DNA of 36,959 nucleotides from a virus, in IMG/VR virus record IMGVR_UViG_3300045973_001487, positions 1-36,959 of that record; one strand, 5' to 3'. The position numbers and the translations under genes were made by a program. The notes beneath the pieces were generated by a model. The model saw only the letters and a list, made by a program, of their open reading frames with translations. It did no database searches and was not told the origin of the DNA. Below are positions 2,254-26,904 of the stretch, one piece after another; position 1 is the first letter of the stretch, and every line of letters starts with the position of its first letter.

Positions 2254-2868
2254 TCAGGGTTTAGCTTTTTGCTGTGACAATTTCATACCCAAGTTTCTGG
2301 CAAGGGTGACGGAAACATATCCAAGACTCATCATGGCAAGAGTATCTTCGCCAAATTCTGCGATGGCAGCATTAACGCAAAATGAAACGACGCGACAATT
2401 CCATTTTTCGTATGGCCCACTTGCGTCTATTCGATCAACTGACATTTTGAAAGGGTGTCTTGATTTATCTATGACTAGCGGTATATTTGTCAATGAGCAC
2501 CTGCCTTGAGATTCAAGAATTAAATCTGAGTGATCTTGCTCAGTGAGATGAAAGCCAATTCCACGCTTTTTTGCACTTTGCTTCAATCCGCTATATTTCT
2601 GCTTTATAAATCCTGAACTTTTCATTTCGGAAAATTTTGCGTGCCATTCAGGATCGATTGACTCGATGACGTCAAGCAAATGAATTCCGGCTGCTTTTTT
2701 TGCGTTTAATTCGACGCCGTTTGAGTGCTCTGCAACAAATTTATCTCTAAACGAAATGGCCTTTGCCACATCGGTTTCCTTGGTCGATTTCCGTATGCGC
2801 TCAGTTCTAATGCGAATATCGATCCAGTAAATTTCATTTCTTTTAAACAGACCCCAAGTCTTTTTCAT
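2254..2868 (-). CDS. Integrase-associated protein: arm-type N-terminus joined to an HNH-like domain
   Basis: The N-terminal 30 residues (KRNEIYWIDIRIRTERIRKS) mirror the N-terminus of the adjacent integrase (KRGEVWWIDIRHQGRRIRRS), which is the arm-site-binding region. The C-terminal half has C124, then SVDRIDASGPYEKWN at 143-157 and N166. This is the pattern of divergent HNH/endonuclease VII-like domains (DRID...GY...N...N), although a Cys-His zinc set is not evident. The gene starts inside the end of the integrase gene (ATGA overlap) and is the last gene before the attachment site. Its sequence is AT-richer than its neighbours, which suggests transfer. It may nick DNA, help recombination or be a homing-type passenger; no known gene is recognised. 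Confidence 0.7.
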   Translation of the reverse strand: MKKTWGLFKRNEIYWIDIRIRTERIRKSTKETDVAKAISFRDKFVAEHSNGVELNAKKAAGIHLLDVIESIDPEWHAKFSEMKSSGFIKQKYSGLKQSAKKRGIGFHLTEQDHSDLILESQGRCSLTNIPLVIDKSRHPFKMSVDRIDASGPYEKWNCRVVSFCVNAAIAEFGEDTLAMMSLGYVSVTLARNLGMKLSQQKAKP

Positions 2869-3926
2869 TTTGTGCCCGTTGTCACGTTGTTAGGCACAAA
2901 TTTTAGCACGTTCGATAGGACTGGTGGCTTCACGTTATTGACGAATCCGGCGACGAAAGATGGTGCAAGGTGGGCATAACGCATGACCATTTCTATCTTA
3001 GCCCAGCCGCCCAATTTCTGCAGTACCTCGAGCGGTGTCCCGGCCATGACATGCCAGCTCGCCCAGGTGTGCCGCAGGTCGTGCCATTTGAAATTCGTTA
3101 TCTCGGCTTTCTTCAGAGCTGCGTACCAGTGACAGTTGCTGGCTGCCGGGATGGGCTCTCCTTCTGATCCTGGGAAAACCCAGCGCGGATGTTTTCCGGC
3201 CTGCTCGGCCAGTATCTGCATCGCGTCATCATTGAGCGGAACGAGCAGCGACTTGTTTGTCTTCACGTTATCAGCATGGACCCAAGCCTGGCGCATTGCC
3301 TGATTGACCTGGACCCATTCCAGGTGTGTGCAGTTGTCTTCGCGCAGACCGGTGGCCAGGGTGAATCGTGCGCAGGCCTTCCATGGTTCGGGCAGTGCTG
3401 CGATCAGCGCCTGGTGCTCCTCGCCTGACAGGTATCTGACCCGGCCGTTCGGCTCTCGGCGCTTGGCAATGTCGGGAACAACCTTGAGCCATCCCCACCG
3501 TTGGGCTTTTCTGAGAATTTTACCGAGGATGGCAGAATGGCGATTGATGGTGCTCGGTGATGTTTTTCGGCCTGTCTTGTGATTGACGATCACGTTGGCC
3601 CGTTCTTCCAGAAGCGTGGCGATCAGATCGCCGGTGATCTCAGTGAGATCTTTGCCCTGCAGCCTGGGCGTCAGCCAGTCGAGCATCTGGGCATCGTGCC
3701 ACAAGCCTGGCCGTCCAGATTCTTCGGATAGAAACCGCTTGATGGCTTCCTCCCATGTGTGATCTGGGAGTTCATCAAGATGCTCTTCGCGCCATAGCTC
3801 CGCCTTCAGGCGGTCGTGCAGCTCTTGGGCCTGCTTCTTATTACCTGTTTGAGCAGATCGCCTAATTCGGCGTCCTTGATGGCGGATGTCGATCCACCAG
3901 ACTTCGCCACGCTTGATGATCGGCAT
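2865..3926 (-). CDS. int: Tyrosine site-specific recombinase (phage integrase)
   Basis: The 353-residue protein has an N-terminal arm-binding segment (EVWWIDIRHQGRRIRRS), a SAM-like core-binding domain (about 55-145) and a C-terminal catalytic domain. Catalytic residues visible are R195 in ATGLRED, a Lys near 222-225, H282 and R285 in HDLRHT, W308 replacing the second His in LGGW, and the nucleophile Y317 in MRYAHL. It integrates and excises the phage, here at bcp. It overlaps the HTH gene upstream by 121 bases and the HNH-like gene downstream by 4 bases, so the three are probably translated together. The ATG at 3926 gives the usual N-terminus for this group. Confidence 0.95.
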   Translation of the reverse strand: MPIIKRGEVWWIDIRHQGRRIRRSAQTGNKKQAQELHDRLKAELWREEHLDELPDHTWEEAIKRFLSEESGRPGLWHDAQMLDWLTPRLQGKDLTEITGDLIATLLEERANVIVNHKTGRKTSPSTINRHSAILGKILRKAQRWGWLKVVPDIAKRREPNGRVRYLSGEEHQALIAALPEPWKACARFTLATGLREDNCTHLEWVQVNQAMRQAWVHADNVKTNKSLLVPLNDDAMQILAEQAGKHPRWVFPGSEGEPIPAASNCHWYAALKKAEITNFKWHDLRHTWASWHVMAGTPLEVLQKLGGWAKIEMVMRYAHLAPSFVAGFVNNVKPPVLSNVLKFVPNNVTTGTK

Positions 3927-5784: not shown

Positions 5785-6020
5785 TCTGAGGACTCCGGTT
5801 CTTCCGGAAATCCATCAACTGGAAGGTAGGCGGCGTAAAGGTCGCTGGTGCACTTGCGGTAGGCAGCAGGGACATTGATGCGAAGGTCGTATCGGATAGT
5901 CTGGTGGGCGGCGCATGTTTCGCGCCGAGCGCACCACTCGCCGGCCATGTGGCCATGAGCGAGGCAACGATTGATGCCGGCATCAAGCGGCATTGGTATT
6001 GGGGTTGCGGTGAAGTTCAT
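5781..6020 (-). CDS. Small Cys/His-containing phage protein, unknown
   Basis: A 79-residue protein with CLAHGHMAGEWCARRETCAAH near residues 19-39. Three Cys and three His in that stretch suggest a small metal-binding knuckle. It overlaps the reverse transcriptase stop codon (ATGA) and the next gene, so it is probably cotranslated directly after the DGR. No function is recognised, but its position makes it a possible DGR accessory. Confidence 0.6.
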   Translation of the reverse strand: MNFTATPIPMPLDAGINRCLAHGHMAGEWCARRETCAAHQTIRYDLRINVPAAYRKCTSDLYAAYLPVDGFPEEPESSE

Positions 6021-7138
6021 GCGGATCTCCGATAAGTTTTGGTCATGTCTGATTTGATGCAGTGGCCACGGCCGCGCAAAACGTTGGCGATCTGGGTGCG
6101 GTCGTGGTGGCTATGGCTGGCCTGGCGAAGCAGACCGAAGTAACTGTTGCCCGTCTGGAATAGGTCGGCAACGTCGATGGACTCAAGGCGGCTGATCGCA
6201 TCATTGAAAGTGCGGCGCCGAAGGTTTCGGCGATGCGGCTTGATGACCTGGCCGACGAAGTCAATGCCGCGGTCGATGGGCTGCAGGATAGTTTTCTTGG
6301 GATTGATGCGAGCGGCTAGTCTGTCGGCAAGTAGCTGCTCGATCTTGGCCTTCGCATCATTCAGCCACCTGGGCGATTCATGCAGCAGCACAAAGTCGTC
6401 TACGTAGCGGATGTAGTGCTTGCAGCGCAGCTCGCGCTTCACGAACTGATCGAGAACGTCGAGATAGACGTTCGCGAAGAACTGGCTGCTCAGGTTGCCA
6501 ATCGGCAGGCCTTTGTGGGCCGGGTGGTTGGTCAGCCGCTTGTGCGCCGGTACCAGGGCCAGCATTTCCGGATCGCCGTGCAGTTCGTAGTTCTGGCGCG
6601 GGTCATGAAAAAGCACAGTTTCAGTTAGCTGCAGCCACCAGTGCTCAGTAATGTGGCGAGCAAGCAGACGCTGCAGGATGTTCTTGTCGATGCTGACAAA
6701 GAAGTTGGCCAGGTCGAGCTTCAGGTAGAAGGCTGGCTTCGTCCAGTTCTGGGTAATGCTACGGGCCTTGGATTCAAGGCGCTCGGCGGCGTAGAGCGTC
6801 CCGCGACCTGGTATGCAGGCGCATGAGTCGGCAATAAATCGGGCGTAGAAAGCCGGTGCAATATGGTTGTGCAGCAAGTGATGCACGATGCGGTCGCGGA
6901 ACTGTGCGGCCCATACCTCGCGGGCCTTGGGTCGCGTGATGACAAAGCAGATCGAGCGACCGGGTTCATAGCTTCCGTCTTCGAGTTCGTCATGAAGATC
7001 CCGCAGATTGCGTTCCAGGTTGGCTTCAAAGGCCATCGCACTGGCGCTGTTGCGCTTAGTACGCCGGCAGTCGAAGTAAGCCTGGGTCAGTTCGGTGAAA
7101 GTGAAATCAGCGGGCGCTTTCCAATCTGCGGACGGCAC
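6017..7138 (-). CDS. Diversity-generating retroelement reverse transcriptase
   Basis: From a GTG at 7138 this is a 373-residue reverse transcriptase of the DGR (Brt-like) class. An N-terminal block (TELTQAYFDCRRTKRNS, about 16-31) precedes palm motif A LKLDLANFF (139-147). The DGR-typical IGNLSSQ motif (213-219) stands where retroviral enzymes have a QG motif. The catalytic YVDD box is at 245-248. It would copy the TR RNA into adenine-mutated cDNA, working with Avd. The conserved sequence starts before the first convenient ATG (7036), so initiation at GTG inside the TR, or further upstream at the ATG at 7369 that overlaps the end of avd, is likely. The frame stays open through the whole TR. 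No maturase or group II intron domain is visible. Confidence 0.93.
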   Translation of the reverse strand: MPSADWKAPADFTFTELTQAYFDCRRTKRNSASAMAFEANLERNLRDLHDELEDGSYEPGRSICFVITRPKAREVWAAQFRDRIVHHLLHNHIAPAFYARFIADSCACIPGRGTLYAAERLESKARSITQNWTKPAFYLKLDLANFFVSIDKNILQRLLARHITEHWWLQLTETVLFHDPRQNYELHGDPEMLALVPAHKRLTNHPAHKGLPIGNLSSQFFANVYLDVLDQFVKRELRCKHYIRYVDDFVLLHESPRWLNDAKAKIEQLLADRLAARINPKKTILQPIDRGIDFVGQVIKPHRRNLRRRTFNDAISRLESIDVADLFQTGNSYFGLLRQASHSHHDRTQIANVLRGRGHCIKSDMTKTYRRSA

Positions 7139-7221
7139 GAGCGCGGAGCTCGTTGTTCTTGTGGTTGTTGTTCTGGTTGCCGTTGTTGAAGTTCTGATAC
7201 CAGGCGTAGCCGGAATCGGAC
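7122..7221 (-). repeat. DGR template repeat (TR)
   Basis: This 100-bp segment is the non-variable template. Read on the minus strand in the target frame it is rich in AAC/AAG codons and encodes NFNNGNQNNNHKNNELRARA. Asn codons give the widest range of residues under adenine mutagenesis. It lies between avd and the RT core, as in the Bordetella phage BPP-1 element. The VR copies differ from it only at template adenines. Bases 7122-7152 are identical in TR and all VRs and contain the inverted repeat CGAGC-GCGGA-GCTCG at 7138-7152. Confidence 0.95.
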
Positions 7222-7361
7222 CAATCGTGCTTTCTACGTCGCCTTGCCGACTATTCAGCAGGGAAACTGCGCCGGACCTTTCGCGGCTGCTGCCGGAGGT
7301 CTCCGTGATACGCATGTCGGTGGCCTTGTGAGCCAGCGGCACGACCAGATTGAATGATCGC

Positions 7362-7736
7362 TCAGTCATGACGGCCGTGGCCTCCATGATGCGGGCGAGA
7401 AGCGGACTTGCGCCACCCATTGGCCTGCTTGCCGATGCTGGTGCTTTTCTCGATAGCCTGGGCGTAGGCGCCCAGCGAGATGAGTTGCTTGTCCTTGGCA
7501 AGACGGATGAGCAGTTCTGCAACCTGCAGGCGCTCAAGCAGTTCCATCAAGTGCGGCTCTTTGTCCTGTGCGACATTGGCGCGAAACACGAGCACGGTGA
7601 TCTCGATGCACTCCATCGCGATCTTCTCACCGATGGTGCGCTTGTAGTCACGGTTCATGTTCTTGACCATGTCAGACGACAAGCCAAGCAGGTCATAGGC
7701 CGCTTTGTAGATGGGCAGGGTGGTATGGGTAGCCAT
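7362..7736 (-). CDS. avd: DGR accessory variability determinant (Avd), four-helix-bundle protein
   Basis: A 124-residue, all-helical protein (TTLPIYKAAYDLLGLSSDMV, then NMNRDYKRTIGEKI and LLERLQVAELLIRLAKD). Length, helical pattern and location between target VR1 and the TR match Avd proteins, which form a basic pentameric barrel that binds the RT and TR RNA and is needed for mutagenic reverse transcription. The C-terminus is Lys/Arg/His-rich (GWRKSASRPHHGGHGRHD), fitting nucleic-acid contact. It begins 18 bases after the upstream target gene. An ATG in the RT frame (7369) overlaps its end, suggesting translational coupling to the RT. Confidence 0.9.
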   Translation of the reverse strand: MATHTTLPIYKAAYDLLGLSSDMVKNMNRDYKRTIGEKIAMECIEITVLVFRANVAQDKEPHLMELLERLQVAELLIRLAKDKQLISLGAYAQAIEKSTSIGKQANGWRKSASRPHHGGHGRHD

Positions 7737-7754
7737 GCTGATTAAATGATCGAA

Positions 7755-8216
7755 TTACTCAATGATCAATCTGCGGACGGCACGAGCGCGGAGCTCGCTG
7801 CACTTGTGGTCGTAGCTCTGGCCGCCGTGGTAGAAGTACTGACACCAGGCGTAGCCGGAAACGGACTCATGATCCTGGCTTGACCAGTACCATTCAGGCT
7901 TGAACTGATCTTTCAGGTTGGCGTAGAGAAGGGATTGTTCGCGGCGGTCAGGGAGTTTGCCTTCCTGTTCGCCGGCCCACTGGACAGCATCATTCCAGTT
8001 GGCGCTTTCGAGTTCGCCGGGCAGGAGCACCAAGTGATAGCTTGGCTGGCCGTCCTGGCCGATGATGAGGCCGGCGTAGTGTTCGCCCGGCTGCAGGGTG
8101 ATGAGCGCCTCGGGGAAGTGATACACCGCCGTGGCATGCTGCGACTTGAACTGCTCGATCAGTTGGCCAATACGATTGTGCTCGGCTTCGATGGCATCAA
8201 GGGTGACTGTGGTCAT
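7755..8216 (-). CDS. DGR target protein 1 (C-type-lectin-fold variable protein)
   Basis: The 153-residue protein has a helical N-terminal extension (1-35) absent from the other two targets, then a DUF1566/Lcl-like CLec core: HLVLLPGELESANWNDAVQW, LPDRREQSLLYANL, WYWSSQDHE. The variable C-terminus is GYAWCQYFYHGGQSYDHKCS followed by ELRARAVRRLIIE. Residues in the NNGNQNNN stretch are diversified and the HK and ELRARAVRRL scaffold is fixed. There is no signal peptide. An AAGGAT site precedes the ATG. The DGR can rewrite its ligand-binding face; the ligand is unknown. Confidence 0.9.
   Translation of the reverse strand: MTTVTLDAIEAEHNRIGQLIEQFKSQHATAVYHFPEALITLQPGEHYAGLIIGQDGQPSYHLVLLPGELESANWNDAVQWAGEQEGKLPDRREQSLLYANLKDQFKPEWYWSSQDHESVSGYAWCQYFYHGGQSYDHKCSELRARAVRRLIIE
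7767..7866 (-). repeat. DGR variable repeat VR1
   Basis: This 100-bp copy aligns without gaps to the TR at an offset of 645. It differs at 13 positions, all template adenines (T on the given strand): TR positions 7153, 7156, 7157, 7166, 7169, 7171, 7177, 7178, 7184, 7187, 7193, 7198 and 7216. The 31 bp next to the gene end are unchanged. Confidence 0.95.
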
Positions 8217-8245
8217 GGTTGATCCTTGGTGAAATGGATAAATTA

Positions 8246-8605
8246 CTAAATGGGCAATCTGCGGACGGCACGAGCGCGGAGCTCGTTGGTCTTGTGGTTG
8301 AGGATCTGGTGGCCGTAGCTGAAGGACTGAAACCAGGCGTAGCCGGAAGCGGAGTGGTGCGTCTCATTGCTCCAGTACCAATCCTTCTTGAGCTGGTCGC
8401 GGTGGTTTGCCCACAGCATGGCTTGCTCGATGCGGGTCGGCAGATCGCCACCGATAGACTTGGCCCATTCCATCTGGGCTTCAAAGTTGGCATCGTCGTT
8501 GTCGCCCGGTAGGAGGATGACGTGGTACAGGTCTCCGGACTTGTCGCCGATGCTTCCGATATAGATTTCGCCCTTTTCAAGCGGCTGGATTTGAAGTTGT
8601 TGCAT
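8246..8605 (-). CDS. DGR target protein 2 (C-type-lectin-fold variable protein)
   Basis: A 119-residue CLec-type protein: IYIGSIGDKSGDLYHVILLP, a helix with EWAKSIGGDLPTRIEQAMLW, WYWSNETHH, then the variable end GYAWFQSFSYGHQILNHKTN and ELRARAVRRLPI. It shares the core layout with targets 1 and 3 but lacks the N-terminal extension of target 1. A strong AAGGAG lies 6 bases before the ATG, and the leader (CAAGGAGCAACC) resembles that of target 1 (CAAGGATCAACC), which suggests gene duplication. There is no secretion signal. Function is inferred only as a diversified binding protein. Confidence 0.9.
   Translation of the reverse strand: MQQLQIQPLEKGEIYIGSIGDKSGDLYHVILLPGDNDDANFEAQMEWAKSIGGDLPTRIEQAMLWANHRDQLKKDWYWSNETHHSASGYAWFQSFSYGHQILNHKTNELRARAVRRLPI
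8255..8353 (-). repeat. DGR variable repeat VR2
   Basis: This 99-bp copy aligns to the TR at an offset of 1133. It has 11 differences, all at template adenines (TR positions 7156, 7168, 7169, 7171, 7178, 7184, 7186, 7192, 7193, 7198 and 7216). The first non-adenine mismatch is at 8354, which marks the upstream end of the repeat. Confidence 0.95.
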
Positions 8606-8627
8606 GGTTGCTCCTTGGGTTAATTGC

Positions 8628-9350
8628 TCAATTCCACGCCGGCTGCGTGTCTTCCAGAAAATCGGCGAGCATACGGGTGGCGCAGGCCGTCAAATTGATC
8701 TCTTTGCCGGCGAATTCGATGTGCAGGGAGCCGTCGATGCTGATCATGGCGAATAGCTTGGGCGGCTTCGCTGAGTCGGTATTGATGAAGATTTCAGGCG
8801 CAACGTGCGTCGGTCCGGCAGCGAATGGACCGGGGAATGGTTCTTCACCTGGCCACTGTATCTTTTCGTCGGAGCCGCCCGAAGCAGGCATTTCGTCCTG
8901 CATCGGGCGCTCGACAACGGCCAGAACCTCGGTAGAGGGCAGTTCTCCCACAACGTGGTTTTCCGATTCCTGGCTGCGGATGATATTGGCCCCTCCGTCC
9001 GCTGGGGTCTGCTTGACGTTGCTCTTCTTTTCGACCTTGGCTTTTGCTTTTGCCATGGCCTCGGTGATCTGTTTTTCTGCCTTTGCGGCCTTTTCTTGCT
9101 TCAGTGCTGGTGCTGCCATGATGGATTCGCCAGCGATCTTGATCAGATGCGCCCGGCCTGCGGGGGTAATCTGCCAGGCGACTTCCTTTGTAAGCGGTTC
9201 CTCGGTCTGCTTGACCTGGCCGGCTTGCTTCATGGAATTGCACGCCCAGCGCATTTTGTTGCGGTCGATCCCGGTCTTGTGCTCGAGGTCATCGTAGGTG
9301 CTGGTGCCCAGGGCGACCAGCGCCTGCAGGATGGTTTTGACTTGGCTCAT
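8628..9350 (-). CDS. Winged-helix-like phage protein, unknown
   Basis: From the ATG at 9350 the protein has 240 residues. The first 75 look like a winged helix (VKTILQALVALGTSTYDDLE, IDRNKMRWACNSMKQAG, WQITPAGRAHL). A Lys/Ala-rich coiled segment follows (QEKAAKAEKQITEAMAKAKA), then a Pro/Gly/Glu-rich linker, and a C-terminal segment (LFAMISIDGSLHIEFAGKEI) that looks like a small beta domain. An open frame extends to 9446 but that extension is not protein-like. It lies between DGR targets 2 and 3 in the same operon. It could be a regulator or a structural adaptor; neither can be shown. Confidence 0.65.
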   Translation of the reverse strand: MSQVKTILQALVALGTSTYDDLEHKTGIDRNKMRWACNSMKQAGQVKQTEEPLTKEVAWQITPAGRAHLIKIAGESIMAAPALKQEKAAKAEKQITEAMAKAKAKVEKKSNVKQTPADGGANIIRSQESENHVVGELPSTEVLAVVERPMQDEMPASGGSDEKIQWPGEEPFPGPFAAGPTHVAPEIFINTDSAKPPKLFAMISIDGSLHIEFAGKEINLTACATRMLADFLEDTQPAWN

Positions 9351-9360
9351 GGTGAATGTC

Positions 9361-9669
9361 TCAGTAAGAGTGGGGAATGACGTTCTGCAGGTCGTGATCA
9401 ATCCAGGTGTCGCGCTCAAGGCTGTGGGCCTGCCGATTGAATGCATGGTCTTTGTGAAGATTGGCGACCATCAGGCGGTGTGTGGCGGCATCAATCTCGA
9501 CATCAAGAGCCGACCGGGCGTCGAGCAGGTTGGAAAGCATCTGTTCGAGATCGGCGACGTGCTGCCTGGCGATGGTCAAGTGGTCACGCTGGGCGTAAAG
9601 CATTGCAAGGCCGAGTGCAGTGATGGCGATAGCCGTCACAAGCAGAACAATAACGATGATGGTGGTCAT
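9361..9669 (-). CDS. Small single-pass membrane protein
   Basis: The 102-residue protein starts with a strong N-terminal transmembrane helix (IIVIVLLVTAIAITALGLAM, about 4-23), followed by a soluble helical region rich in Leu/Ala/Asp that may form a coiled coil (IARQHVADLEQMLSNLLDAR). AAGGAG lies 8 bases before the ATG. It sits within the DGR operon between two target genes. The function is unknown; membrane anchoring is predicted from the sequence. Confidence 0.65.
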   Translation of the reverse strand: MTTIIVIVLLVTAIAITALGLAMLYAQRDHLTIARQHVADLEQMLSNLLDARSALDVEIDAATHRLMVANLHKDHAFNRQAHSLERDTWIDHDLQNVIPHSY

Positions 9670-9683
9670 GGAAACTCCTTGAA

Positions 9684-9890
9684 TTAAGCAGCGGCGGGAA
9701 GGGCTTCAAGGATGGCCAGGTGGCGGTGCTTGACCTTCACGGCGATCTTGAAGAAGCCAGCTGGGACGACTGGCGAGACAACGACCTTGCTGCCGTTGCT
9801 GATCAGGTGCATTCCGGCTGCTTTGGCGACCTGGGCAAGTTCTTCGACGGTGGTGTCGTCGGTGAAGGCGAGGATGGTGGCGGCGATCAT
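9684..9890 (-). CDS. Small phage protein, unknown
   Basis: From the ATG at 9890, which follows TAGGAGGAAAC (an excellent ribosome site), this is a 68-residue alpha/beta protein (ATILAFTDDTTVEELAQVAK, then AGMHLISNGSKVVVSPVVPA). A longer frame to 9932 lacks such a site. It belongs to the leftward DGR operon. No family is recognised. Confidence 0.6.
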   Translation of the reverse strand: MIAATILAFTDDTTVEELAQVAKAAGMHLISNGSKVVVSPVVPAGFFKIAVKVKHRHLAILEALPAAA

Positions 9891-9898
9891 GTTTCCTC

Positions 9899-10081
9899 CT
9901 AGTGGTTGGTCAGCTTGCGCAGCCAGGCGCAAAGCTGGTTTGGGTCGGTGCGATAGCCAAGCTGTATTACCCGGCCAGCAACGCGGCGGCAGACCTTGAA
10001 GCGATCACCGGCTGGGATCACGAAGCAAGTGCTGCCCTGGGTAATTTCACGGGCCTTGGCGAGTGTTTCGGCGGTAGTCAT
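9899..10081 (-). CDS. Small phage protein, unknown
   Basis: A 60-residue protein with MTTAETLAKAREITQGSTCF, a beta-rich middle (VIPAGDRFKVCRRVAGRVIQ) and a short helix CAWLRKL. It lies 24 bases after target 3 and 8 bases before the next gene, in the same direction and within the DGR operon. No function is recognised. Confidence 0.55.
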   Translation of the reverse strand: MTTAETLAKAREITQGSTCFVIPAGDRFKVCRRVAGRVIQLGYRTDPNQLCAWLRKLTNH

Positions 10082-10105
10082 GGCTGGTCAAAAATTACTG
10101 AATGA

Positions 10106-10459
10106 CTAAATGACCAATCTGCGGACGGCACGAGCGCGGAGCTCGTAGTCCTTGTGGTGGTAGTACTGGTGGCCGCTGGTGAAGTACTGATACCAGGCGT
10201 AGCCGGAAGCGGACTCAGTGTTTGACCAATACCAGGAAGGCTCAAACTCTTCTTTAGCAGTGGCGTACATCAGCGCCTCCTCGACGCGGTTCGGGAGATC
10301 GCCGCCTTGCTTGGCGGCCCAGTTCATGGATTTCTTCCAGGTGCCTTGGAAAGTGCCTGGGAGCAGGATGATGTGGGTGGTGGTGCCGTCAGCAGCGACG
10401 ATGCCGCCTATGTAGCGTTCGTCTTCGGCGAGGTCGGGTATGAAGCGGGTGTTGGTCAT
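10106..10459 (-). CDS. DGR target protein 3 (C-type-lectin-fold variable protein)
   Basis: A 117-residue CLec-type protein: ERYIGGIVAADGTTTHIILL, MNWAAKQGGDLPNRVEEALM, WYWSNTES, then the variable end GYAWYQYFTSGHQYYHHKDY and ELRARAVRRLVI. It is the first gene of the leftward operon, directly behind the promoter at 10492-10520, with GGAGG upstream of its ATG. Tyr, His and Ser dominate the diversified sites, a composition common in DGR binding faces. It has no signal peptide or tail-attachment domain, so it is either cytoplasmic or carried by a partner. Confidence 0.9.
   Translation of the reverse strand: MTNTRFIPDLAEDERYIGGIVAADGTTTHIILLPGTFQGTWKKSMNWAAKQGGDLPNRVEEALMYATAKEEFEPSWYWSNTESASGYAWYQYFTSGHQYYHHKDYELRARAVRRLVI
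10115..10214 (-). repeat. DGR variable repeat VR3
   Basis: This 100-bp copy aligns to the TR at an offset of 2993. It has 10 differences, all at template adenines (TR positions 7154, 7157, 7166, 7169, 7172, 7178, 7183, 7186, 7193 and 7216). One extra matching C precedes it at 10114. Confidence 0.95.
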
Positions 10460-13009: not shown

Positions 13010-15379
13010 ATGGGGTGGACAAATTTCGATGACGTGCTTGGCCAGATACGGGCCTTCGGGCTTGATGTTGAGGCCAAGGATCTAGTCATCGGCACACGCC
13101 GGCGATGCCGGGCCAAGGATGGCGGAAAAGAAAAGCGTGGCTGGTTCCAGCTCTACGAACTGCCGAAGGCGGACGGATCAGGAGTTCTGATCGTTGGCAG
13201 CTTCGGTGCGTTCTGGGGCGCCGACAACGTGGTGCAGAAGGTCGAGCTGCCGAGCAAGGACCGCAAGGCCATGACCTCCGAGCAGGTCGAGGCGCTCAAG
13301 GCGCGCATCGCGGCCGACAAGAAAGCCGCTGAGGCTGAGGCCAAGCGCAAGGCCGATGAATGCGCCCGCCGTGCCGACCGCGCCTGGCGGGCCGAGTGCA
13401 AGGAAGGCAGCCGCGACCAGTCGGAATATCTCAAGCGCAAGCGGATCGAGGCGCATGGTGGGCGGTTCCTTCCTGGCGGGAAATTCTGCATTCCGCTTCA
13501 GGACACCGAGCGCCGCACATTCGGCCTGCAGGTGATTTATGACAAGAAGCACAACGGACGCGACAAGTCGTTCTGGCCGGCCGGGCTGGCGAAGAAGGGC
13601 CATTTTTTCATGCTCGGCGGAATTCCCGACCGGCTGCTGCTGGTGGCCGAGGGATTCGCCACGGCGGCCAGCATTCAACAGGCGACTGGGTTGCCGGTGG
13701 CCGTGGCCTTTGACGCCGGCAACCTGCTGCCGGTCGTCAAGGCGCTGCGCGCCAAGTACAAGCGCGCCAAGATCCTGATCTGCGCCGATGACGACTATCT
13801 GACCACCGGAAACCCAGGGCTCACAGCCGCGCGCAACGCTGCCCTGGCCGTTGAAGGCGAAGTCGTTTTCCCTGTTTTCGCCGACGAACGCCCGACCGAC
13901 ACAAAGGGCGCCACCGATTTCAATGACCTGCACCTGCTCGAAGGCCAGCACGTCGTCACAAAACAGATCGAGGCCACCATCACGGTACTGGGCTGGTCGG
14001 CTACTCGCGCCACGCGCGGGAGTGCGGATCAACCGGGGGGAGGGGAGCAGGGCGAGCGGCGCGCAGCCAGATCGGTCATGGATCTCGACGACATCGTCGA
14101 GCGCTTCATGCCGCTGGATGACGGGACGGGGGAATACGTCTTCGACTCCTGGACCAACAAGGTCGCCAAGCGCACGCAGATGATCGCGCTGCTCTCCGCC
14201 GGTGTACGCGGTGACGACATCAAGCGCCACCCGGTGTGGATAACCCGTGGCGCCTATTATCTCGATCAGGTCGGATTCGACCCAAGCGGAAACGACCGCA
14301 TGGTCAAACTCAACACCTGGCGCGGCTGGCCGATGAAACCGAAAGAGGGAAGCTGCGAAAAGCTGCTCGAAACCCTCTGGTATCTCTGCGGAAAAGAAAA
14401 CAACCAGGAAGAAGTCTACAACTGGATTCTCAACTGGATGGCCTGGCCGCTACAGAACCCCGGCGCCAAGATGGCCAGCGCCATCATCATGCACGGCCCG
14501 CAAGGCACCGGAAAATCCAGCGTATTCCAGACCCTCGCCAAAATCTACGGCGACTACAGCACCGTCCTCAACCAGCGCGGCCTAGAAGACAAATTCAACT
14601 CCGACTGGTCCGACTCCAAGCTCTTCATCCTGGCTGAAGAAGTCGTCACCCGCGCCGAAATGTGGCACATCAAAAATGAGCTAAAAGAACTTGTCACCGG
14701 CGAATGGATACGCATCAACCCCAAGAACATCGCCGCCTATCGCCAGCGCAACCAGGTCAACATCGCCTACCTGTCCAACGAAAACCAGCCGCTTCCACTC
14801 GATAACGACGACCGCCGACACCTCGTTGTCTACACCCCGCCGGCGCTCAGTGAAGCCTATTACGACGAGCTCTATCTTGAGCTCGACAACGGCGGCCCAG
14901 AAGCCCTCTACCACTACCTGCTGCAGCGCGACCTGACCGGCTTCCACCCAAAAAAGCGCCCGCCCATGACGCAGGCCAAGAAAAACCTCGTCGCCCTATC
15001 GCAAGCCAGCGAGATCCGCTTCATCAACGACTGGATCACCGGCGACTGGATACTCCCGATCTGCCCCTGCCTGTCCGCCGACCTCTACGCCGCCTACCTA
15101 AAGTGGTGCCGCATCAACGGCGAATCCAGGCCGCGCCCGAGCAACCAGTTCTTTGGCGCTATCACCCACCAGCAAGGATGGGAAAAAAAGCGGGCTCGCT
15201 ACTACCCCAGCGCTGAAGCATTAAAAGACGTTCTCGGCATGGTCGTCATACCTCCGCCGCACATCCTGCAGGCCGCTGAAACAGAAAACACCGGGAAAAC
15301 AGAACCCGTATGGCTAGGTGAGTGCATCCGACGCTTTAGCGATGCCATGTCGACGCACGAAATTAGGGCGGCCGCCTGA
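13010..15379 (+). CDS. Phage replicative primase-helicase
   Basis: The 789-residue protein has an N-terminal region resembling DUF7146/zinc-less primase modules, then a TOPRIM domain (LLLVAEGF with E214; ICADDDYL with D260-D262), and a C-terminal superfamily 3-like helicase of the DUF5906 group. Walker A GPQGTGKS is at 496-503, a Walker B-like LFILAEEV follows, and NDDRRHLVVY is near the arginine finger. It should prime and unwind phage DNA, much like the P4 alpha protein. The candidate origin with iterons begins one base after its stop codon, fitting an origin-binding initiator. The start is the ATG at 13010. Confidence 0.93.
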   Translation: MGWTNFDDVLGQIRAFGLDVEAKDLVIGTRRRCRAKDGGKEKRGWFQLYELPKADGSGVLIVGSFGAFWGADNVVQKVELPSKDRKAMTSEQVEALKARIAADKKAAEAEAKRKADECARRADRAWRAECKEGSRDQSEYLKRKRIEAHGGRFLPGGKFCIPLQDTERRTFGLQVIYDKKHNGRDKSFWPAGLAKKGHFFMLGGIPDRLLLVAEGFATAASIQQATGLPVAVAFDAGNLLPVVKALRAKYKRAKILICADDDYLTTGNPGLTAARNAALAVEGEVVFPVFADERPTDTKGATDFNDLHLLEGQHVVTKQIEATITVLGWSATRATRGSADQPGGGEQGERRAARSVMDLDDIVERFMPLDDGTGEYVFDSWTNKVAKRTQMIALLSAGVRGDDIKRHPVWITRGAYYLDQVGFDPSGNDRMVKLNTWRGWPMKPKEGSCEKLLETLWYLCGKENNQEEVYNWILNWMAWPLQNPGAKMASAIIMHGPQGTGKSSVFQTLAKIYGDYSTVLNQRGLEDKFNSDWSDSKLFILAEEVVTRAEMWHIKNELKELVTGEWIRINPKNIAAYRQRNQVNIAYLSNENQPLPLDNDDRRHLVVYTPPALSEAYYDELYLELDNGGPEALYHYLLQRDLTGFHPKKRPPMTQAKKNLVALSQASEIRFINDWITGDWILPICPCLSADLYAAYLKWCRINGESRPRPSNQFFGAITHQQGWEKKRARYYPSAEALKDVLGMVVIPPPHILQAAETENTGKTEPVWLGECIRRFSDAMSTHEIRAAA

Positions 15380-15640
15380 TGTTCAGGGTTCATATGCCTA
15401 ATGTTCAGGGTACACGGAACACGCGAAACCCGCAGCACCACAGGTTTGTTCAAAGTGTTCAGGGTGTTCAAGGCTTACCCGCCTGCGTACACGTGAACGC
15501 ATCGCGCACGCACACGCATTTATTTAATTCTCTCTCGCGTGTACACACAAGGAACACCCTGAACACTTTGAACAAGCCAGTGATCGCAATGCTTTCCGGT
15601 GTTCAGGGTACGTTGAACATTCAAAACCACACCCTGAACA
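15380..15640. repeat. Candidate phage replication origin with TGTTCAGGGT iterons
   Basis: Six exact copies of TGTTCAGGGT occur: plus strand at 15380, 15402, 15456 and 15600, and minus strand at 15556-15565 and 15631-15640. Degenerate copies (TGTTCAAAGT, TGTTCAAGGC) flank the third one in tandem. The centre (about 15515-15535) is AT-rich. Iterons beside a primase-helicase gene are the P4-type origin layout. A minus- and plus-strand reading frame of this stretch look alike only because the DNA is nearly palindromic, so the region is treated as non-coding. Confidence 0.75.
15446..15575. repeat. 24-bp perfect inverted repeat within the origin
   Basis: Bases 15446-15469 and 15552-15575 are perfect reverse complements (24 bp) separated by 82 bp. 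Beyond the arms, weaker inverted similarity continues outward to roughly 15400 and 15625. The arms contain one full and two partial iterons each. Confidence 0.9.
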
Positions 15641-15669
15641 TACCAAAAACCAAGCCCCTGCGCCAAACC

Positions 15670-15996
15670 ATGCCCACCGTCGCCGCCTGGATAGACCAGC
15701 ACCGCGCCATATTCGGAGAAGTCGACACCAACGCCGCCATCAAAGCCGGCATAGAAGGCCAGCTGACGTTCTATGCGCGTGAAAACGGTCAGGTTGTAGG
15801 AACGCCCCACCCGAGCCAAAAAAACGCCACAGCGGCCCACCGCTGCAAAGCGTGCGCCCATTACGCCCGCCCCGGCATGTCCGCCGGCTACTGCGCAACC
15901 AGAACAGACTTGCCCGCCGCCTACGGCACCAACCACCCGCTGCACCATCTCCCCGCCGATGCCGGAGCCGACTGCACCAAATTCGAGGACATGTAA
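15670..15996 (+). CDS. Small Cys-rich phage protein, unknown
   Basis: From the ATG at 15670 the protein has 108 residues: MPTVAAWIDQHRAIFGEVDT with a helical region, then HRCKACAHYARPGMSAGYC and a final DC, a possible Cys4/His zinc site. The frame is open from 15379, but that upstream part is the iteron region. It ends in a TAATG overlap with the next gene. It may be a DNA-binding accessory for replication, which is only a guess from the putative zinc knuckle and position. Confidence 0.55.
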   Translation: MPTVAAWIDQHRAIFGEVDTNAAIKAGIEGQLTFYARENGQVVGTPHPSQKNATAAHRCKACAHYARPGMSAGYCATRTDLPAAYGTNHPLHHLPADAGADCTKFEDM

Positions 15997-16201
15997 TGGA
16001 CGACATCGAACACCCCAGGATCGCGAACAAAAAGACCGCGCCCTATGCCTGGCCGCTGCCCGCAACCAGCCGGTGCGCGACTACGCCAGCGAAATCTGCC
16101 CAGGATGCAGCTACGCCACCAAAAGTAACTTCGGAAAGCAGTGCGAAGCCTGGACGGAATGCCTGGCCGATCTGACCAAGCGGGAAAGGGCAGGGCGATG
16201 A
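15996..16201 (+). CDS. Small phage protein with an apparent -1 frameshift near its start
   Basis: GAGGAC lies 7 bases before the ATG at 15996, whose frame begins MDDIEHP. The protein-like continuation (QDREQKDRALCLAAARNQPV to ICPGCSYATKSNFGKQCEAW) is in the -1 frame from about 16013, at a run of four C. Rejoined, the product has 68 residues with a CPGC motif and a later Cys pair. An in-frame ATG at 15959 would give an 80-residue form without a shift, but it lies inside the previous gene and lacks a good ribosome site. A one-base deletion, sequencing error or real slippage all remain possible. Confidence 0.5.
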
Positions 16202-26001: not shown

Positions 26002-26802
26002 ATGAATGAGTTGGCTCTTTTCGCAGGCGCTGGTGGTGGAATACTCGGCGGAAAATTGCTTGGATGGAGAACCGTCTGCGCAGTTGAGCGTAATGCCTAC
26101 TGCGCACAAATTCTTGCACAACGGCAGAACGATGGATGCCTCCAGCCTTTCCCGATATGGTCTGACGTGTGCAGTTTTGACGGACGGCCATGGCGAGGCA
26201 TTATTGATGTCGTATCTGGCGGGTTTCCGTGCCAAGACATCAGTATTGCCGGTAAAGGCAAAGGTCTCGACGGGGATCGTTCCGGCCTCTGGTCTGAGAT
26301 GGCCAGGATCATTGGCGAAGTACGACCAAGATACGCGTTCGTGGAAAACAGCCCCATGCTTACTTCTCGGGGACTCGGAAGAGTTCTCGGCGACCTGGCC
26401 GAACTCGGGTATGACACGGACAGGGATGTCTTATCCGCGTCAGACATTGGCGCCTGCCAGCAAAGGAAACGCCTCTGGATTGTGGCGAACTCCGTCAGCG
26501 ACGATTGTGGATTCAAAGTCCAACGTGACGAAGCTCACAGGGAGAACACCGAAAGACCCACAAGTAGGACTGGCGGATCAGGTAGTAGCTGCCGACCGCT
26601 TACTATGGATTCCCCCAACGGAAAGCTCCAGCCCTTTGGACTTGGACGCAGATTTGCTGAGCCGTGGGCAAATGAACCCCCAGTGGGGAGAATGGCTAAT
26701 GGGGTGGATTATCGGGTGGACAGACTTAAAGCCATTGGGAATGGACAAGTTCCATCAGTGGCGGCAACAGCATTCCGAATGCTTTCTAATCCCCCAAACT
26801 GA
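26002..26802 (+). CDS. DNA (cytosine-5) methyltransferase
   Basis: The 266-residue enzyme has all main C5-MTase blocks: I FAGAGGG (7-13, SAM binding), IV GGFPCQDIS (C77 is the catalytic nucleophile), VI VENSP (114-118, ENV-like), VIII QQRKRLWIVA (153-162), and X GNGQVP (246-251). The target recognition part (about 170-235) is short, as in phage enzymes. It probably protects phage DNA from host restriction; its site cannot be read from the sequence. The gene is a separate cassette with its own regulator before it and terminator after it. Most of its length is also read in another frame (next entry). Confidence 0.95.
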   Translation: MNELALFAGAGGGILGGKLLGWRTVCAVERNAYCAQILAQRQNDGCLQPFPIWSDVCSFDGRPWRGIIDVVSGGFPCQDISIAGKGKGLDGDRSGLWSEMARIIGEVRPRYAFVENSPMLTSRGLGRVLGDLAELGYDTDRDVLSASDIGACQQRKRLWIVANSVSDDCGFKVQRDEAHRENTERPTSRTGGSGSSCRPLTMDSPNGKLQPFGLGRRFAEPWANEPPVGRMANGVDYRVDRLKAIGNGQVPSVAATAFRMLSNPPN

Positions 26803-26809
26803 TTTCTAA
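26132..26809 (+). CDS. Conserved phage protein overprinted on the methyltransferase gene
   Basis: A second frame is open from 26006 to 26809 and, from the ATG at 26132, encodes 225 residues that look like a real protein: MDASSLSRYGLT, SYLAGFRAKTS, GSLAKYDQDTRSWKTAPCLL, SEEFSATWPNSGM, and a C-terminus MNPQWGEWLMGWIIGWTDLK plus PLGMDKFHQWRQQHS. These blocks match, from memory, a phage family often found beside C5-methyltransferases. The GNGQVP codons of the enzyme give GMDKFH in this frame. No function is known; it may modify or support the methyltransferase. No clear ribosome site is seen, so translation might be coupled or weak. Confidence 0.7.
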   Translation: MDASSLSRYGLTCAVLTDGHGEALLMSYLAGFRAKTSVLPVKAKVSTGIVPASGLRWPGSLAKYDQDTRSWKTAPCLLLGDSEEFSATWPNSGMTRTGMSYPRQTLAPASKGNASGLWRTPSATIVDSKSNVTKLTGRTPKDPQVGLADQVVAADRLLWIPPTESSSPLDLDADLLSRGQMNPQWGEWLMGWIIGWTDLKPLGMDKFHQWRQQHSECFLIPQTDF

Positions 26810-26904
26810 TCCAATCTTCACCGTGAACACAATTTCGCCCACTCCGAAAGGAGCGTGATCCGCAGCAACGCCGCGAGGCGACCGATCCTGCAACTGGAAA
26901 CCAC

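Follow-up and report, generated by a model that had tools for sequence, protein, structure and literature searches.

A dyad cluster of 9-bp iterons directly behind a temperate-phage primase-helicase gene as a probable replication origin read by that protein

The iteron cluster in the prophage and in related loci

The window analysed here, an entire IMG/VR record of 36,959 bp, carries an integrated temperate tailed phage with genes for an integrase, an S24 repressor, a YdaS/Cro-like protein, a primase-helicase, a terminase, tail and head-tail attachment proteins, and lysis. A phoH-like gene, probably belonging to the host flank, was seen at the left end, next to two integrase-like ORFs (624-2054 and 2254-3926 for the whole group); a 204-aa ORF at 2254-2868 resembles an integrase N-terminus by eye. 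This arrangement points to the left junction between prophage and host. The minus strand of 6017-10459 holds a probable diversity-generating retroelement with a reverse transcriptase (6017-7537) and, as its targets, three short ORFs of the Lcl_C-like kind (7755-8216, 8246-8605 and 10106-10459). Four related 126-nt copies in this region (at 7099, 7744, 8232 and 10092) may be the template and variable repeats. Further to the right, a C5-cytosine methylase ORF (26002-26802) is overlapped by a second long ORF (26006-26809) in another forward frame.

The primase-helicase was the sole replication initiator recognised in the record. Its domains are a Toprim primase at about residues 210-313, a DUF5906/D5-like SF3 helicase at about 463-609 and a C-terminal winged helix. 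The last was predicted in the AlphaFold2 models (pLDDT 93 and 94), in which a second wing strand at residues 741-747 accompanies the elements listed in Table 1. The fold of the helicase part matched NrS-1 (CTR) with Z 25.6 and the SaPI5 primase-helicase with Z 17.9; dsDNA-bound PriRep1 and D5-type proteins of ASFV and poxviruses also matched. Taken alone, the winged helix gave no match below E 0.3 against the PDB (Foldseek) and a weak fold match to 1ka8 (Z 4.9 over 78 residues at 17% identity), which other winged helices equalled, and its sequence profile resembled that of the P4 origin-binding domain marginally.

Table 1. Positions, in the window, of the initiator gene, its predicted DNA-binding elements and the adjoining cluster
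Feature	Position	Strand	Basis
Primase-helicase initiator, 789 aa	13010..15379	+	Pfam/PHROG matches, fold matches
Predicted winged-helix DNA-binding domain, residues 667-747	15008..15250	+	AlphaFold2 and peak of word co-variation
Predicted recognition helix, residues 711-719	15140-15166		AlphaFold2
First wing strand, residues 725-731 (EKKRARY)	15182-15202		AlphaFold2
Open frame, ATG overlapping primase stop (TGATG), in frame into MPTVAAW gene (ATG 15673)	15379..15996	+	ORF and family tests
Dyad iteron cluster, 12 sites (six exact)	15380..15640	both	Sequence and conserved layout
Outer left sites: F 15380, F 15402, degenerate R 15413 (CACGGAACA)	15380..15421		Sequence
Inner left triplet TGTTCAAAG-TGTTCAGGG-TGTTCAAGG, F 15447/15456/15465	15447..15473	+	Sequence, repeat finder
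Centre with ATTTATTTAATT	15474..15547		Sequence; family centres compared
Inner right triplet CAAGGAACA-CCCTGAACA-CTTTGAACA, R 15548/15557/15566, mirroring the left triplet	15548..15574	-	Sequence, repeat finder
Outer right sites: F 15600, degenerate R 15611, R 15631	15600..15640		Sequence

Exact copies of TGTTCAGGGT lie at 15380(+), 15402(+), 15456(+), 15556(-), 15600(+) and 15631(-). With at most one mismatch allowed, ten matches were found in the window compared with 1.7 ± 1.2 in dinucleotide shuffles, none of 100 of which reached ten; the four additional matches lie at scattered positions. Six degenerate copies were read from the sequence, namely TGTTCAAAG at 15447, TGTTCAAGG at 15465 and, on the reverse strand, four more at 15413, 15548, 15566 and 15611, so that the full anatomy comprises 12 sites of about 9 bp. 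Their order is a dyad, [F F R][FFF]-centre-[RRR][F R R], in which the inner copies are spaced by 9 bp, and the repeat finder showed that the arms 15400-15469 and 15552-15621 (70 nt) are 77% complementary. The mirror order extends to the sub-variants, which run AAAG, GGG from the outside inward on either side. An A/T-only stretch, ATTTATTTAATT, lies at 15518-15529, close to the dyad centre, and the centre as a whole is the likely melting site. The first-pass annotation had described six exact sites on both strands within 261 bp, degenerate tandem copies, an AT-rich centre and a start one base after the primase-helicase gene, whose stop indeed ends at 15379; all of these features were recovered. 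The count in the window that it had proposed as a check gave six copies of TGTTCAGGGT in the cluster and none elsewhere, so the word is not equally common outside it.

Relatives were collected in three homology scans (L001-L044, L046-L125 and L126-L197). After the removal of duplicates, 146 loci, including phage S1 (L045), had enough sequence past the primase stop. For these, a de novo 9-mer search was performed on the 342 bp that span and follow the stop, and scored against control regions of each locus. The cluster 3' of the primase exceeded every control region of its own locus in 142 of the 146 loci, with a median score of 7.5 compared with 2.5 in 1,122 control regions (99th percentile 4.0). 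The layout is conserved: the first site starts at a median of +10 and the last ends at a median of +266, forward copies lie on the left (about +0 to +110) and reverse copies on the right (about +155 to +290), and the dominant same-strand spacings are 9 bp (305 times) and 12 bp (124). The A+T content of the family centres is just slightly above that of the genes.

The word itself is variable. Among 127 usable loci we counted 75 distinct word strings, an approximate number since some strings contain undetermined bases, and the copies inside one locus agree; examples are TGTTCAGGG, TGTTCCGGG, TGTTCTAGG, TGTGATGGG, TGTCACAGG, GCGCACGGG, TCTCACGCC and TGTGCGGTA. In L126, L054 and L046, to which the window is most closely related, the sites and their places are the same, with TTCC replacing TTCA in essentially every copy, and the R site that is degenerate at 15413 in the window is a near-intact copy. 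Inner and outer words differed in one of 71 testable loci. Mixed words were seen within single clusters of two close relatives, L016 (7486-7740; outer TGTTCAGGGT, inner TGTGCAGGG) and L020 (3225-3490; outer GGTAACAGGT, inner TGTACCGGG-like), which may represent intermediate stages in a switch from one word to another.

The same architecture with further words was found in the published phages S1, PG1 (L200), Mcat3 (L201), Turba (L204) and PS3 (L206); no origin is annotated in the stretches of these phages that were examined. In the last four, the cluster adjoins more distant primase-helicases, and in Turba the primase and helicase parts are separate ORFs. The unit of helicase, winged helix and origin may move without regard to the type of primase. 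In H4907 the cluster is looser, and no such cluster was found 3' of the related primases of LPPA36, AXL3 and BPP-1.

Co-variation of the word with the initiator

The distances between words were compared with the distances between initiators along the protein. Given the N-terminal distance, the partial rank correlation between word distance and residue-window distance peaked at 0.41 for residues 721-744, while the highest value within primase residues 1-640 was 0.21. It should be noted that all-pairs statistics of this kind are non-independent, and therefore the argument is carried by two other tests, with matched pairs and with distant partners.

For the first, 58 non-overlapping closest pairs were classified, 28 with the same word and 30 with different words. 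The same-word pairs were less diverged in residues 641-744 (p 4e-5, 4e-4 and 7e-3 in three segments). No difference was seen in residues 1-420, and the groups separate from about 521 on, most strongly in 641-744. The pair L016/L020, with different words, shows 8% divergence in the N-terminus and 47% in residues 690-770.

For the second, partners diverged by at least 45% in the N-terminus were chosen by the similarity of given residue columns. Partners chosen by 19 winged-helix residues had a word distance of 3.14 compared with 4.60 ± 0.29 for entropy-matched columns, none of 400 sets of which came as close. Three of these 19 columns were picked with knowledge of the couplings described below; the 16 columns chosen from structure only gave 3.39, whereas choice by the whole N-terminus gave 4.26 and choice by the terminase small subunit (TerS) 4.09.

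Strong couplings between residues and bases sit in the wing and the recognition helix: base 3 is coupled to R728 (z 8.1), base 1 to S734 (z 7.0), base 9 to N712 (z 5.3) and base 5 to K727 (z 5.0). Values of z 4-5 were also seen for some columns that lie beyond the domain. KKRAR[CY] occurs with TTCA (in the window, L002 and L004), KKKAR with TTCC, H[KR]D with CGCAC, and HP-gap with GTGCGGG. As the tree sets the window apart from L002 and L004, the combination of TTCA with KKRAR probably arose twice. The single rules R728 to A6, H728 to GCAC, G727 to A5 and A729 to TC mostly held in the predicted direction where they could be read, with few independent changes; taken one at a time on tree-independent pairs, none was significant, and we treat them as sequence-derived leads.

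Since the TerS gene is often the next gene, a packaging site of the cosB or pac type, with repeats bound by the product of that downstream gene, was a serious alternative. In many relatives TerS follows directly, and in phage S1 it follows after one small ORF. However, the cluster always abuts the primase stop, whereas the distance to the TerS start varies between 0 and about 3 kb (it is 1.6 kb in the window). The word correlates with TerS at 0.135, given the primase N-terminus and winged helix, compared with 0.414 for the winged helix given TerS, and distant partners chosen by the first 60 TerS columns were no better (4.91) than all pairs (4.68). As neither the position nor the co-variation is that of a site bound by TerS, this candidate was rejected as very improbable. 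Comparison of the sequences thus indicates that the word differences track the C-terminal winged helix of the primase, and neither the rest of the primase nor the DNA-binding end of TerS.

The location of the cluster between the early and late genes would also suit an operator cluster for a transcription regulator of the late genes. Such an operator would have to lie 3' of the primase gene as a fixed dyad of 12 sites that spans 270 bp; moreover, the word follows the winged helix of the primase itself, and no sigma-70-like promoter was found within 15000-16000, so we give this explanation hardly any credence.

The open frame across the cluster

In 81 of 127 loci, frame +2 past the primase stop has no stop codon in the first 261 nt, compared with 23 ± 4.4 (maximum 36) in 100 shuffles of the spacers with the iterons kept. 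The other two frames are open in 17 (null 17) and 34 (null 20) loci. A start codon overlaps the primase stop, as ATGA, GTGA or TGATG, in 91 loci; the frame stays open past the last iteron in 76 of these and in 9 of the 36 loci without such a start (Fisher 7e-10). On tree-independent pairs, this association was 9.0 vs 2.4 with a median p of 0.09. The stop of the open frame overlaps the start of the next gene as ATGA in 36 of the 76 loci, and in 61 of the 76 it lies within -25 to +15 nt of the start of an ORF of at least 60 codons. In Stenotrophomonas phage S1, the open frame is annotated as gp2.

A frame open for 205 codons in the window, and in so many relatives, could mean that the sites are part of a repetitive protein gene starting at 15379, but the substitutions by codon position (0.156/0.151/0.166, compared with 0.080/0.054/0.324 in the primase) and the GC content by codon position carry no coding signal, the internal gaps are mostly not multiples of 3 (107 vs 25), and the sites lie on both strands with variable words, so this candidate was rejected by the substitution and composition tests as exceedingly improbable. 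The simplest reading of the first 98 codons from 15379 is that they form no protein domain but a translated relay, by which ribosomes would stay on the transcript while crossing the origin. That the relay protects from Rho is a guess.

The origin reading and known replication systems

We conclude, with a probability of about 0.9, that 15380-15640 is a phage replication origin of the self-loading-helicase type, read by the primase-helicase. The first-pass annotation had proposed an origin tied to the replication protein, and the position and layout in more than 100 relatives together with the winged-helix co-variation argue strongly for it at the level of sequence. GC skew was discarded as evidence, as its sign change near 13-15 kb coincides with a change of gene direction. 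By analogy with the helicase family, the C-terminal winged helix would bind the 9-bp iterons that immediately follow its own gene. Two helicase hexamers would be seated by the opposed triplets, one on each side of the AT-rich centre, and the outer sites would help assembly. The hexamers would then melt the centre, replication would proceed in both directions, and the Toprim primase would provide the primers.

In SaPI and other PICI elements, which occur in Gram-positive and Gram-negative hosts, the origin lies directly 3' of the (primase-)helicase gene, with two opposed iteron sets around a presumed melting region (PMC6092414; PMC7581432). The C-terminal domain of the SaPI Rep helicases recognises the iterons directly downstream of the gene, apparently as two hexamers, and the isolated C-terminal domain of Cch2 binds its own downstream repeats (PMC7581432). 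The window shares with these elements the position of its putative origin (1 bp after the stop, and likewise 3' of the helicase gene in the 142 of 146 loci), opposed iteron sets flanking an AT-rich region (the dyad with ATTTATTTAATT) and a D5/SF3 helicase with a C-terminal DNA-binding domain, here a predicted one (fold match 7ola). Unlike them, it carries a Toprim rather than an AEP primase and belongs to a complete temperate tailed phage; with its terminase, tail and head-tail attachment genes, the record is not a satellite lacking virion genes.

The cluster had also been taken for a P4-type origin, and here the analogy stands in part. Like P4 alpha, the initiator is a multifunctional protein, predicted to combine a primase, an SF3/D5 helicase and a C-terminal winged helix. 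In P4, crr lies directly 3' of alpha and its type 1 repeats are 9 bp apart and face each other, and both words contain TGTTCA. However, the P4 word is GGTGAACAG and that of the window TGTTCAGGG, and the only near match of the TGTTCAC type in the window, at 26820, is far from the cluster. P4 also has an ori and a distant crr, the latter made of two 120-bp direct repeats unlike the dyad, whereas the window has one cluster. The symmetric layout fits the PICI/SaPI description better than P4, and the locus is neither, because the phage is autonomous and tailed, has a single cluster and does not use the P4 word.

The O/ori system of lambdoid phages likewise combines phage iterons, specificity types that follow the DNA-binding part of the initiator and an origin within translated sequence, features that the window would share. 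Unlike the protein described here, lambdoid O has no helicase part and depends on a DnaB loader, and its iterons lie inside O itself.

In the PLE satellites of Vibrio cholerae, the DNA-binding domain of RepA covaries with the origin, modules have been exchanged, and the origin possibly changed under attack by an origin-directed nuclease (PMC8263062). PLE differs from the present family in its RepA_N-type initiator, which is unrelated to D5 helicases, and in having two alleles compared with about 75 words. By analogy, a nuclease-like pressure, or the incompatibility of co-resident prophages, could explain the word diversity. For pRN1 ORF904 and the Bordetella phage BIP-1/BPP-1, an origin was also proposed 3' of a primase-SF3-winged-helix gene (PMC4234260); unlike in the window, it is a stem-loop rather than iterons, and BPP-1 is without such a cluster.

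An origin 3' of a helicase gene with opposed iterons (SaPI/PICI) and the co-variation of initiator and origin (PLE, PMC8263062) are thus already known. A literature search conducted mostly outside subscription journals found no paper on these phage origins. The wider picture, to which we assign even chances, is that temperate phages carry a large natural series of self-loading-helicase origins of one fixed dyad design. In it, every copy of the 9-bp word would change in concert with the initiator's wing and recognition helix, which would yield a readable residue-to-base code, and the origin would lie inside a stop-free, translationally coupled ORF, free of selection as a protein, that would let ribosomes cross from the primase to the late genes.

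The layout described as unique to phage-inducible islands extends to many autonomous temperate phages and prophages, among them the published phages named above. With about 75 naturally matched pairs of initiator and word, the long-standing question of how an initiator changes specificity in step with a dozen identical sites can be put to the test, and orthogonal origin/initiator pairs become available for plasmid design. The translated ORF that relays ribosomes without encoding a selected protein would, if true, be a new solution for the expression of late genes through a replication origin.
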